64,000 bases of DNA. It comes from Marinobacter subterrani (lineage in GTDB: Bacteria; Pseudomonadota; Gammaproteobacteria; Pseudomonadales; Oleiphilaceae). Within the stretch, counting starts at the first letter, position 1, and every line of letters begins with the position of its first letter. The position numbers and the translations under genes were made by a program. The DNA is taken from positions 186,001 to 250,000 of the forward strand of contig NZ_LFBU01000001.1 in NCBI RefSeq assembly GCF_001045555.1, read 5' to 3'. Shown one piece after another: positions 14,124 through 57,954 of the stretch. Under the pieces are notes generated by a model that did not search any database, was not told the DNA's origin, and worked only from the letters and a program-made list of their open reading frames with translations.

Positions 14124-14197
14124 GCCTGCCTCCCGTTGATTGGCTGCTCATCAGTACCGGGCCACCACGCCCGATAGACGCCCCGTGGGGCGTTTCG

Positions 14198-38726: not shown

Positions 38727-38807
38727 CAAATCGCTCAAGTACGTTCCCGGCCTGACGGCCGTCCACCGGACGTCCCTGACGGGCCGCCGCTTAGCTTCGC
38801 GTTAGCT
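38721..38807 (+). repeat. attC 2
   Basis: TAAC at 38724-38727 overlaps the cassette 2 stop codon; crossover at G 38801 (GTTAGCT). The long inner palindrome includes GGCCTGACGGCC. Confidence 0.88.
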
Positions 38808-39229
38808 GAGAAGTGCGCTGTTCCTTTGGGGTGGTTCGGTGCCAGTGGCATTGGCCGCAAACGGGTAGCAAAATCGTCAAGGTCGGTGGTTTGCCAAGGC
38901 CGTCGAAATCCGTCGTCAGGTTGGCAGCTCAGTCGGTCAGCGGTGTTGGTAAAAGCTTGGGTGTTTGCCGTGCGGGGCCGTCCGGCGAAACCTGGTTCCT
39001 TGCTTACCTGCTACTCTGAAGTTCAGGTTCGTTCACCGCATCATCGGCGGTGGTTTTAATCAAGGTGCACTGGGCAGAGCTTGTGCCCCAAAGAAACGGA
39101 GCAGGCTGTCATGCTGGTTGCCAAAGATCGGGTTTCATTCCGGTTCGGTTGTTCGCAGCTAACAAAGCCATCAAATTCGCTCCCTACGGTCGCCGGACGC
39201 CCTTGTCAGGGCGCCGTTTATGGCCGGCG
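38802..39229 (+). other. Cassette 3: gene-less cassette, identical to cassette 20
   Basis: 428 bp with no believable gene; the open frames (for example 38826-39059) have odd composition and no ribosome site. The whole unit, including its attC, is identical base for base to 51377-51804. It may carry a promoter, a small RNA or a decayed gene. Confidence 0.75.
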
Positions 39230-40709: not shown

Positions 40710-40779
40710 GCTAACAAGTGGCTGTTGTCGGACGCACCTCCGCTGGCGCTCCGGTGCGCCGCAAAGCCAAGCGTTAGAG
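40709..40779 (+). repeat. attC 5
   Basis: AGCTAAC at 40709-40715 just after the stop; the following bases AAGTG are shared with several other attC sites. Crossover G 40773 (GTTAGAG). Confidence 0.86.
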
Positions 40780-41038: not shown

Positions 41039-41072
41039 CTTTAACAAGTGACTGTGGTGTCAATCACATATA

Positions 41073-42025
<953 letters not shown>

Positions 42026-42231
42026 AATAAGCTGACTCTGCCTTGCTATACGGGCTCGAGGCCCCGATGACTGTACGAGTTATCGCTTGAGAGTCATGCA
42101 GCGCTACGCACTTGTTACCGGTCTCTCGGATGAGGAGCCTGCCAACATCGAGCTGCCGCATGAAGGCCCCCAGCGGCCACTGGGGGTGGGCCTCAATTTA
42201 CCCAAACACGGTAGAAATTATCCATACAAGG
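42026..42231 (-). ncRNA. Candidate IS110 bridge-RNA leader (copy 1)
   Basis: This is the 206-bp non-coding end upstream of the transposase start. It contains a strong hairpin (about 42164-42192, arms AGGCCCCCAG / CTGGGGGTGGGCCT, imperfect). On the transposase strand it also holds GGTAACAAGTGCG (plus 42108-42120), which matches the attC sequence TAACAAGTGC. IS110 elements encode a bridge RNA in this end; whether this one does is inference. Confidence 0.42.
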
Positions 42232-42319
42232 CCATTAAGGTTGTTCCGGGCCGATGGCCCTCCACCGGACGCCCCTGTCGGGGCGCCGCTTATGGCTGGC
42301 GTTAACTGGGAAGGAGCCC

Positions 42320-44499: not shown

Positions 44500-46065
44500 T
44501 CACACCTTGTCAGGTATAGCCGGCTTCCAGTTGTGGGGCAATAGCTCGTCGATGGCGTTGTTTTTCTGCGTCGGCAGGCGGGTCAGCACATCTTTGAGGT
44601 AGGCATAGGGATCATGCCCGTTCAGCTTGGCTGACTGGATCAGAGTCATGACCGCCGCAGCACGCCGGCCACTGCGTAGTGATCCCGCGAACAGCCAGTT
44701 GGAACGGCCCAGCGCCCAGGGCCGGATCTGGTTTTCCACCCAGTTGTTATCGATGGGCACAGCACCATCGTCCAGGTAGCGCGTCAGCGCTTCCCAGCGT
44801 TTGAGGCTGTAATCCAGGGCTTTGGCTGTGCCGGAGCCATCCGGCACTTTCTGTCGGTGGGCCAGCATCCATTGATGCAAGGCGTCAGCAATCGGTCGGG
44901 CTTTTGTTTCCCGGATCTCCTGCCGTTTGTCCGGTGGCAGGTCTTTGGTATCCCGCTCGATCTCGTAGAGGGTACCGATGTATTCCAGGGCTTTGGCCGC
45001 CAACTCACTCTTGTTGGCTTCGTGCAGGTCGTAGAACTTGCGTCGGGCGTGGGCCATGCAGCCGATTTCGATGATGCCGTTGCCGAACCCGGCCTTGTAG
45101 CCAGCATAATCATCACACACCAGCTTGCCCGGCCAGTCGCCCAGGAAGGTGCGGGCGTGTTCGCCCGCGCGGCTGGGCGCGAAGTCGTAAACGGTGGCTT
45201 TCAGATCTGAGAACGGCGTGGTGCAGTAGGCCCAGACGTAGGCTTTGTGGGTTTTCTTCTTGCCCGGAGCCAGCATGCTCACCGGGGTTTCATCGGCATG
45301 CAGAACGTTGTGTTCCAGCAAGGTGTTTCGCAGTGCATCCGCCAGGGGCTGCAACTGCACACCGCAGGCACCGACCCATTCGGCCAGAGTGGAGCGCGGG
45401 ATTTCCAGGCCGGCACGGCCGAAGATGCGTTCCTGGCGGTACAGCGGCAAGTGGTCGGCGTACTTGGCCACCAGGACCTGAGCCAACAGACCGGAGGTAG
45501 GTATTCCCTTATCGATCACCTGCGCCGGTACCGGTGCCTGGATCAGCGTCTCGCATTTGTCGCAGGCCCACTTGCCCCGGATGTGGCGCTCCACCGTGAA
45601 CTCGCCGGGGACATAATCCAGCTTCTCACTGACGTCCTCGCCAATGCGCTTGAGCTGGCAGCCACACTGGCATTGGGTATTGTCCGGTTCGTGGTGGATC
45701 AGGGTACGGGGCAGTTCCGGTGGCAGCGGTGTACGCTTGGGCTTTTGCTTGGGCCGGGCAGCCTTCTGCTCCTCGGTCATCGCCTGGTCCAGCTCGGCTT
45801 CGATCGCCGCCAGGTCGCTGTCGATCAATTCATCCAGCAGCTTGCCCTGAACGGCGTCCAGTTGCTCGCTGCGCCGGGCGTACTTGTGGCGCTTGAGGAT
45901 GGCTACTTCGTGAGTCAGCTTCTCGATGATGGCGTTGCTGCGCACCAACTCTCGCTCCTTCAGGCCCAAGACTTGATCCTTGGCGTCTAGAGAGTCCATC
46001 AGTTCCGTCGCCAGGGCACGGAGCTGATCGGCAGAGAGTTGGTTGATATCGGGGCGCTGAGTCAT
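44500..46065 (-). CDS. tnpC: IS66 transposase TnpC
   Basis: 521 residues. N-terminal leucine-rich helix region (LKERELVRSNAIIEKLTHEVAILKRHKYARRSEQL), a zinc-binding segment (CQCGCQL...CDKCETLI), then the DDE domain with LHADETPVSML, KLVCDDYAGYKAG and the C-terminal Glu region NNWVENQIRPWALGRSNWLFAGS. Full length for the family. Confidence 0.96.
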   Translation of the reverse strand: MTQRPDINQLSADQLRALATELMDSLDAKDQVLGLKERELVRSNAIIEKLTHEVAILKRHKYARRSEQLDAVQGKLLDELIDSDLAAIEAELDQAMTEEQKAARPKQKPKRTPLPPELPRTLIHHEPDNTQCQCGCQLKRIGEDVSEKLDYVPGEFTVERHIRGKWACDKCETLIQAPVPAQVIDKGIPTSGLLAQVLVAKYADHLPLYRQERIFGRAGLEIPRSTLAEWVGACGVQLQPLADALRNTLLEHNVLHADETPVSMLAPGKKKTHKAYVWAYCTTPFSDLKATVYDFAPSRAGEHARTFLGDWPGKLVCDDYAGYKAGFGNGIIEIGCMAHARRKFYDLHEANKSELAAKALEYIGTLYEIERDTKDLPPDKRQEIRETKARPIADALHQWMLAHRQKVPDGSGTAKALDYSLKRWEALTRYLDDGAVPIDNNWVENQIRPWALGRSNWLFAGSLRSGRRAAAVMTLIQSAKLNGHDPYAYLKDVLTRLPTQKNNAIDELLPHNWKPAIPDKV

Positions 46066-46140
46066 GCCGCCTAGTATGCCAAGTCCCTGTGCGGCAAGCG
46101 ATTCGCGGTTCTGGCTATAGCAGCATTACGGCACTTGTGG

Positions 46141-46476
46141 TTACAGGATGGAGATGACGCCTTCCGCGCCAAGGCGCTGCCAGGGCAGGCCCTGAACCAG
46201 AGCGGACAACTGTTCCTCGGTCAGGCGCAGTTGGTCACCGCGCCAGGTTTCACCCCAGTGGAACTTGCCCCGGTTCAGCCGGCGGGCACACAGCCAGATA
46301 CCGAGGCCATCGTGGATCAGCACCTTCATCCGGTTGCCGCGTTTGTTGGCGAACAGATAGGCGCAATGCGGCCTGGCCGAACCAAACACCTGGATGACTC
46401 GCGCCAGCGCCTTGTCCGGCCCCGCCCGCATATCCAGTGGTTCGGTGGCCAGCCAGATCTCGTCGATACGGATCAT
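46141..46476 (-). CDS. tnpB: IS66 accessory protein TnpB
   Basis: 111 residues from MIRIDEIWLATEPLDMRAGPDKALARVIQVFGSARPHCAYLFANKRGNRMKVLIHDGLGIWLCARRLNRGKFHW, the classic Orf2 sequence of IS66 (PF05717). It overlaps the tnpA stop, and both are needed for transposition in studied IS66 members. Confidence 0.95.
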   Translation of the reverse strand: MIRIDEIWLATEPLDMRAGPDKALARVIQVFGSARPHCAYLFANKRGNRMKVLIHDGLGIWLCARRLNRGKFHWGETWRGDQLRLTEEQLSALVQGLPWQRLGAEGVISIL

Positions 46477-46838
46477 CCCAACAGGCCCCGGAGCAAAGCA
46501 GCACATTGATGCGCCTGCTCCGCAGGCCACTCCACCACAACCGCACCACCGGCGCGGGGAATCTCGATACGGATGGTGCTACGCTTGTCCGAGACCGACG
46601 GGTTGCTCGGTGCTGAGGTTGCCGCTGGCAGTTTGACCGGTACAAATTCCGGCGTTTTATCCGCTCGCTGCGCTTCACTCATCCAGCGCCGGACCATGTT
46701 GGCGTTGAGGCCGTTATCCAGGGCGATCCGGGAAACGGAGGCACCAGGTGCCAGGCATTGGGCGACAATCTCGGCCTTGAATTCGCGGGAAAAGCGGCGA
46801 CGGCGCTGGTAGGGTTTGGTTACGCTTAAGTCGTTCAT
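46473..46838 (-). CDS. tnpA: IS66 accessory protein TnpA
   Basis: 121 residues. The HTH region RRRRFSREFKAEIVAQCLAPGASVSRIALDNGLNANMVRRWM is typical of IS66 Orf1. The C-terminal half (IRIEIPRAGGAVVVEWPAEQAHQCAALLRGLLG) is also family-like. Confidence 0.94.
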   Translation of the reverse strand: MNDLSVTKPYQRRRRFSREFKAEIVAQCLAPGASVSRIALDNGLNANMVRRWMSEAQRADKTPEFVPVKLPAATSAPSNPSVSDKRSTIRIEIPRAGGAVVVEWPAEQAHQCAALLRGLLG

Positions 46839-51303: not shown

Positions 51304-51382
51304 CAAGTGCATTAAGTCTGTTCCGGCCCGACGGGCCTCCACCGGACGCCCTAGTCGGGCGCCGCTTATGCAAGCGTTAGCT
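51298..51382 (+). repeat. attC 19
   Basis: CTTTAAC at 51298-51304 followed by AAGTGCATT; crossover G 51376 (GTTAGCT). Confidence 0.88.
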
Positions 51383-51804
51383 GAGAAGTGCGCTGTTCCT
51401 TTGGGGTGGTTCGGTGCCAGTGGCATTGGCCGCAAACGGGTAGCAAAATCGTCAAGGTCGGTGGTTTGCCAAGGCCGTCGAAATCCGTCGTCAGGTTGGC
51501 AGCTCAGTCGGTCAGCGGTGTTGGTAAAAGCTTGGGTGTTTGCCGTGCGGGGCCGTCCGGCGAAACCTGGTTCCTTGCTTACCTGCTACTCTGAAGTTCA
51601 GGTTCGTTCACCGCATCATCGGCGGTGGTTTTAATCAAGGTGCACTGGGCAGAGCTTGTGCCCCAAAGAAACGGAGCAGGCTGTCATGCTGGTTGCCAAA
51701 GATCGGGTTTCATTCCGGTTCGGTTGTTCGCAGCTAACAAAGCCATCAAATTCGCTCCCTACGGTCGCCGGACGCCCTTGTCAGGGCGCCGTTTATGGCC
51801 GGCG
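51377..51804 (+). other. Cassette 20: gene-less cassette, exact copy of cassette 3
   Basis: 428 bp, the same sequence as 38802-39229 including the attC. No gene recognised. Because the neighbours on both sides differ, this is a duplicated cassette and not a duplicated array segment. Confidence 0.78.
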
Positions 51805-56667: not shown

Positions 56668-56705
56668 TCATCACATAACAGTGACTGTGGTGTCAATCAC
56701 ATATA

Positions 56706-57865
<1,160 letters not shown>

Positions 57866-57954
57866 ACAATCCCGGCGACGTCTACTACATTGCGGCTTTG
57901 CCTGCATTTCGTAGCCGCGCATGTTGAGCGGCGTAAGACTGGAAAGAGGACAAC

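Follow-up and report, generated by a model that had tools for sequence, protein, structure and literature searches.

What brings an insertion sequence repeatedly to one and the same point of integron attC sites, and could an RNA encoded at the element's own end guide it there? The question is raised by the 64,000-nucleotide stretch of Marinobacter subterrani contig NZ_LFBU01000001.1 analyzed here (the window; contig positions 186,001 to 250,000, numbered below from 1), in which the plus strand from 38.2 to 58.6 kb is occupied by a cassette array of about two dozen attC sites. The array holds two near-identical copies of an IS110-type element, both on the minus strand. Our results make it very probable, as judged from sequence, that this element has a bridge RNA whose target loop reads the core and R'' box of attC.

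Comparison of the copies and of empty sites places copy 1 at 41047–42228 (1182 bp, to within 2 bases at the core), and comparison of the copies places copy 2, which is intact, at 56680–57862 (1183 bp). The transposase gene of copy 1 carries a 1-base deletion, and with it a frameshift, relative to the other three copies in the genome, which leaves two open pieces on the minus strand (41624–42025 and 41073–41600). That of copy 2 (56706–57659, minus strand) encodes a DEDD transposase of 317 amino acids with domains PF01548 and PF02371, both above cut-off; a G--P----SG motif can be read in the protein, and its closest solved relatives are the transposases of ISCro4 and IS621. The original prediction counted two copies, which holds for the window, but the genome (4.45 Mb, two contigs) has four, the two outside the window lying intact on the same contig with proteins identical to that of copy 2, each with one further attC-like site in the surrounding 20 kb. 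Non-coding sequence amounts to 203 bp upstream of the copy 1 transposase against 26 bp downstream. The leader predicted at 42026–42231 is present in substance but ends at 42228 (again within 2 bases at the core), its last bases being attC. Upstream regions are 195–240 bp long in relatives with a mapped left end, apart from L021 (127), L072 (185), and L073 (143), where L numbers denote individual loci. In copy 2, the 60 bp next to the ends contain no exact inverted repeat of at least 5 bp. A scan of viral contigs returned no relative, and the best 10 of 26 phage records reached identities of 26–33%.

The window has other features of note. Within the array, three genes on the minus strand at 44500–46838 look like an IS66-type transposase set, and a 300-base stretch that occurs twice at 98% identity (38782–39081 and 51357–51656) is probably part of a duplicated cassette. 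Outside the array, the minus strand at 14138–14200 matches the Type II hammerhead ribozyme with 73.9 bits (E 1.5e-13), far over the Rfam threshold.

Both window copies break an attC site, as placed by their junctions and by intact relatives of those sites. Copy 1 separates an R'' end reading TTTAACA (41040–41046, plus strand) from the remainder of its attC, which extends to the R' box GCGTTAACT (42229–42307, plus strand); copy 2 separates CATAAC (56674–56679, plus strand) from a remainder with a variant R' (CGTAAGACT; 57863–57940, plus strand). On the plus strand, the flanks therefore read TTTAACA and then AGGCCATTAAGG for copy 1, and CATAAC and then AGGACAATCC for copy 2. Four other genomes of the genus (L131–L134) have an uninterrupted attC, 96–97% identical over 76–77 bases, in which TAACA is joined directly to AGGCCATTAAGG; on this alignment, these sites are the exact empty site of copy 1, with no target duplication. 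Uninterrupted relatives of the copy 2 site are 88–91% identical. The mapped ends and flanks thus bear out the claim that the two copies sit at the same point of two attC sites. The rejoined targets originally given for them, sharing TAACAAC-AT, were in error, as the real flanks and the intact sites agree with the leader over TAACAAG. All four genomic copies have the same junction and the same orientation in their flanks.

To place these insertions in a wider context, relatives were gathered from named genomes (22 loci), from 19 of 124 genomes of the genus (E 1e-60), from 25 of 390 of the order and 9 of 369 of the class (both E 1e-70), these sets overlapping, and from plasmids, with 8 regions taken of 2712 records. 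The first 86 loci reduce to 64 distinct insertions, partial ones counted, of which four (L072, L073, L084, and L085) are outgroups by their flanks and 52 have a usable upstream region. An attC test combining an R' matrix from 23 window sites with L'/L'' pairing, and taking shuffled flanks as its null, left out three further insertions with short flanks; of the insertions scored, 37 of 47 lay above the 95th percentile of that null, and 33 also passed the 99th. When L072 and L073, outgroups with other guides that both fail, are set aside, 37 of 45 family insertions pass. The eight that fail are L001, L011, L013, L016, L019, L057, L063, and L067, and by eye the flanks of L011, L013, L057, and L067 resemble other DNA. 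Three of the four genomic copies pass; copy 2 (L001) falls just below the 95th percentile because of its variant R'. We conclude from these flanks that each of the four copies in the genome breaks an attC, always at the same point and in the same orientation, which for L001 means by context and intact relatives only. The outcome that would have spoken against the prediction, copies lying mostly outside attC, is thus absent, with four of four genomic copies in attC. An earlier scorer based on outer-arm duplexes was dropped, as it missed plain attC sites such as L028, and a covariance model built from 20 window sites went unused with only 4 base pairs, its alignment having misplaced L''.

Two details of the junctions deserve mention. 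The left end of the copies (TTGTATG, minus strand) itself resembles R'' (TTGTTATG), so that the attC half next to the insertion retains a near-R'' sequence (ATACAAG for TAACAAG); this is not an adaptation to attC, since the same end is found in the non-attC outgroups L072 and L093. In L002 (G000:C1:606043), the R'' region of the attC reads TAGGCAAG in place of TAACAAG, which could reflect decay after insertion or a rearrangement between copies.

The upstream non-coding region has the features expected of a bridge RNA template. In copy 1, the predicted template spans 42026–42228 on the minus strand. The 52 upstream regions were aligned; 44 distinct ones were kept, with L072, L073, L077, L082, and identical sequences excluded, and removal of L055, L067, and L078 for their inserts left an alignment of 41 on which structure was counted. 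The structure drawn on this alignment has 24 pairs, with pairing in 96.5% of cells and change on both sides in 18 of the pairs, and its covariation score of 0.451 compares with 0.175 for shuffled and at most 0.137 for slid controls; the structure was derived from the same sequences and is favored to that extent, for which the controls compensate in part. RNAalifold, run by itself, recovered the same architecture, with compensatory change in 23 of 29 pairs. A hairpin stands at the 5' end, a closed target loop bears guides along both of its sides, and the donor region includes a small hairpin of its own, so that the fold check originally proposed finds a conserved, covarying structure with a target loop. 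The strong GC hairpin noticed in the leader is the predicted 5' hairpin (42167–42186, minus strand; 6 of 7 pairs changed on both sides), and it is followed by the target-binding loop with its closing stem (42095–42162, minus strand; both partners changed in all 8 stem pairs counted) and by the hairpin of the donor-binding loop, GGGCCUCGAGCCC (42052–42064, minus strand), a helix in the covarying structure. The corresponding region of copy 2 is 57660–57862 (minus strand), with left target, right target, and left donor guides at 57774–57782, 57741–57753, and 57700–57708. Taken singly, the leader fold is not unusually stable (z −1.1), and an Rfam search gave no match in six loci (E up to 1) or at the window leader.

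The donor-loop hairpin shows two further peculiarities. The short inserts of L055, L078, and L067 (CACCCAAAGGGCATCACA or similar) adjoin it. In addition, the strand that forms it can pair alternatively with the 5' end of the leader (window region 42187–42196): across the 41 relatives, the longest run averages 8.37, compared with 7.19 when partners are swapped (none of 500 swaps as high), although it is only 5 in 9 of 41. This pairing suggests that the predicted RNA may adopt two exclusive conformations.

Element and target are linked through the right target guide, which lies in the target loop on its 3' side. The leader was said to contain GGTAACAAGTGCG, and it does, at 42107–42119 on the minus strand, where the right guide region reads GGUAACAAGUGCG; the guide proper, UAACAAG (42111–42117), is complementary to the core CT plus the TGTTA of R'' on the attC bottom strand, TAACAAG being the reverse complement of CT+TGTTA. 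It was also stated correctly that TAACAAGTG occurs in the attC sites at 40712, 47571, and 51301, in the last two as TAACAAGTGC. The 9–10 base match to attC 12 and 19 that was drawn from this overstates the guide, because the TG after TAACAAG is constant in close relatives whatever target bases precede the core and drifts in distant ones. The whole of GGTAACAAGTGCG was accordingly rejected as a guide, since its TG does not follow the target bases.

Across the family, the guide changes with the site. A TAACCAG guide accompanies a GGTTA flank in 6 of 6 cases and TAACAAG a TGTTA flank in 37 of 40, the other three having odd flanks (L001, L002, and L063), and no crossed pair was seen among the 46 scorable TAAC[AC]AG elements of the 52. 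On a tree of 28 transposase genes there are four guide switches and four flank switches, and four of four independent pairs agree; a sign test on the four gives 0.125, fewer than six pairs being unable to reach 0.05. Five plasmid relatives, from Salinivibrio, Pseudoalteromonas, and three Vibrio, extend the pattern by eye: L087, L089, and L091 have the guide UAACAAA with a right junction TTTGTTA, and L088 and L090 have UAACAAG with CTTGTTA, where the first core base in these relatives may be donor-derived. Three of the five have a left end, and L087 and L090 pass the attC threshold with L088 just short. In the outgroups, GGGAGAG stands opposite CT+CTCCC in L072, L092, and L093, and with one mismatch in L073; this branch, to which L084 and L085 are joined by their flanks, is on these sequences another target class. 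The TAACAAG motif is retained in elements less than 50% identical in protein. The position of the guide and its switching with the R'' base thus support the central claim of the original prediction, that the predicted target loop would read the R'' box, and the opposite finding, guides that fail to pair with attC flanks, did not occur. That the likeness of leader and attC should be a matter of chance, or a captured piece of attC with no guide in it, has a probability close to negligible: the matching stretch is only 7 bases long, but it is conserved, occupies the place of the guide in a loop that covaries, and varies in step with the target.

The left target guide, AUGUUGGCA (42140–42148, minus strand), behaves differently. 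It precedes the right guide, which puts the bottom-strand match 5' of the top-strand match, and it is hypervariable: within a set of 18 close upstream regions, pairwise differences per site come to 0.456 in the left guide versus 0.067 in the right, with 0.036–0.117 in the stems and hairpins and 0.044 in the unassigned rest of the RNA. These 18 close relatives have 15 distinct left guides, and two copies in one genome, L006 and L008, differ in the left guide and at only 2 other aligned positions. The guide agrees with the left flank at 3.79 of 8 positions versus 2.85 for permuted partners (z 4.6, 0 of 2000, n=48, uncorrected for relatedness). The signal peaks at one register, with weaker ones at two others (z 2.2 and 2.1), and is carried mostly by positions 4 to 6 from the 3' end. 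At the left junction, the base preceding the core T varies, in parallel with a variable attC base at that place.

This covariation bears on the alternative that the transposase recognizes the folded attC hairpin, single-stranded or as a cruciform, or else an integron protein, the guide match being minor. Such a mechanism would not lead one to expect that the right guide and the R'' subtype switch together, that the left guide changes with the left target, or that relatives with a different right guide occupy different sites, with L072 and L073 failing the attC test; structure alone would not separate TGTTA from GGTTA sites. We regard it as decidedly unlikely, notwithstanding two observations in its favor that are taken up below with the sufficiency of the guides.

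Covariation extends to the donor side. The left donor guide, ACAGUCAUC (42066–42074, minus strand), matches the right end of the element, CACAGTCACT, and the two change together in 49 elements, agreeing at four positions in 49, 49, 48, and 48 of 49 (uncorrected for relatedness); by eye, the guide also tracks the right end in four of the five plasmid relatives, the exception being L091. A putative right donor guide, GUAUAGCAAGG (42041–42051, minus strand), is proposed from its position and its partial complementarity to the left end, CTTGTATGG, both sides being conserved. When the ends are joined, they form TTGACA-N17-GATAAT in 21 of 50 elements, and the mean promoter score of the circle junction is 9.91 versus 7.44 and 8.29 for the integrated left and right ends and 7.56 for shuffled sequence. 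In all 50 elements the best promoter site extends across the junction, a result favored by the junction's position in the middle of the stretch tested.

These observations fit a model in which excision would join the element ends into a circle, where the promoter-like TTGACA-N17-GATAAT would drive a bridge RNA made from the upstream end of the element. The donor-binding loop would recognize the joined ends, and the right guide UAACAAG would pair with the core together with the conserved R'' box. The variable left guide would pair imperfectly with the adjoining spacer and L''. The transposase would then recombine the circle into attC in one orientation and with no target duplication, the transposase strand corresponding to the attC bottom strand. 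At the level of sequence, the ends, the empty site of copy 1, the attC location, the covariation of the fold, of guide with target and of guide with donor, and the promoter-like junction are established. We infer that the element produces the RNA, that the transposase binds it, and that it suffices for targeting, and the circle and the recombination chemistry are carried over by analogy from IS621 and ISEc21.

Guide match alone, as modeled, does not explain why the insertions are in attC. In the element's own genome, the pattern TTGGCNTTGTTA, which leans on guide positions found weak, has 87 sites with at most one mismatch versus 82 for a reversed control, so that guide-like sites are frequent and occur outside attC as well. 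For only 19 of 43 elements does no higher-scoring site lie within 1 kb of the insertion, and the insertion site is uniquely best for 14 of 43. For L002 the match is poor on the left (2 of 7) as well as on the right (3 of 6), and L001, whose target is one base shorter, scores low (4 of 7 and 2 of 6). Either the guide score misses part of recognition, such as further bases, the core, or the attC fold, or selection removes other insertions. It is here that recognition of the folded hairpin gains some credit, from guide-like sites about as frequent as chance and from the 37 of 45 family insertions in attC, more specific than the imperfect match of the left guide predicts. Selection, for its part, would mean that the element inserts at many guide-like sites and survives mainly in attC, arrays being dispensable. 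The 87 near-matching sites genome-wide agree with this, and cassette arrays would be expected to tolerate insertions, but many near-matches are to be expected in dispensable DNA as well, and the exact point, the orientation, and the covariation with R'' require a recognition step. Survival as the main explanation is therefore unlikely, and reading of the core and R'' by the predicted target loop is the account we prefer.

Elements in attC are not new in themselves. Retroelements also invade attC sites and are likewise RNA-containing mobile elements, with unrelated chemistry. IS1111 elements that target attC were reportedly published by Tetu and Holmes in 2008 and by Post and Hall in 2009. According to PMC11187229, ISKpn4 and ISPst6 have a seekRNA derived from the non-coding region that matches both target strands and was purified with the transposase. 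Targeting of attC by IS1111 elements with a seekRNA is thus known already, and the mechanism proposed here is of a known kind. That source describes the RNA of IS1111 elements as usually downstream, the top-strand match preceding the bottom-strand one; in the IS110 type it is mostly upstream, and in the single RNA tested there the bottom-strand match precedes.

The present element could, then, simply belong to the published IS1111-attC group (ISKpn4, ISPst6, ISPa21, and ISPa25), with which it shares insertion in cassette attC and a related DEDD transposase. IS1111 elements have an RNA region that is usually downstream, sub-terminal inverted repeats, and the reversed guide order, none of which applies here: the RNA region is upstream, no inverted repeat of at least 5 bp lies within 60 bp of the ends, and the bottom-strand match comes first, as in the IS110 type and opposite to IS1111. 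Membership in that group is very improbable, and we assign the element to the IS110 type by its domains and motif, its upstream non-coding region, its guide order, and its lack of a long sub-terminal inverted repeat. Among the 60 plasmid records listed of 2712, none had an IS1111 annotation.

Other parallels are found among IS110-type elements. IS621 (PMC11208160) shares with the present element a bridge RNA at the left end, a target loop with left and right guides, a donor loop, a CT core, a promoter at the joined ends, and a homologous transposase. The present element differs from IS621 in that its target is the attC R'' box, its core is NT, with only the T invariant in 20 aligned window sites, and its left guide is hypervariable with a loose left match. 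ISEc21, for which a circle-junction promoter is described, and ISMch6 (PMC11187229) are of the IS110 type with an upstream non-coding region, a circle-junction promoter, no target duplication, and natural redirection by altered guide bases, as here; theirs, however, is a linear target in IS3-family genes with one redirection, whereas the present clade has at least four right-guide switches. The 'IS110' said to disrupt attC in PMC11616780 is ISPa21, of the IS1111 group, and a Shewanella survey (PMC9229058) reports IS110 elements in cassette arrays with no IS interrupting attC. The open literature searched, taken as titles, opening lines of abstracts, and selected passages, gave no description of upstream-RNA IS110 elements in attC. 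What looks new, on sequence grounds, is an IS110-type clade in attC with an upstream RNA and a guide order reversed relative to IS1111, in which a hypervariable left guide stands beside a near-fixed right one.

We lean slightly toward the view that this clade, found in Marinobacter, the Vibrio group, and other Gammaproteobacteria, evolved RNA-guided integron parasitism separately from the IS1111-attC group, its right guide tied to the integrase core box and adjusted as the R'' subtype changes while its left guide is continually reprogrammed to track attC spacers. If this is true, integrons are a point of convergence for the two branches of the IS110 family, and the left guides amount to a natural series of reprogrammed recombinases. 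The guide-target code is testable, elements with TAACAAG and TAACCAG guides being located in TGTTA and GGTTA attC sites respectively, and the naturally matched guide-target pairs could be used both for work on bridge recombinases and for the study of how IS110 guides evolve. We would expect an element sitting at R'' to alter the cassette or lock it. Our work suggests that the two branches of the IS110 family both attack integrons, which would be natural landing pads for this element and its relatives.
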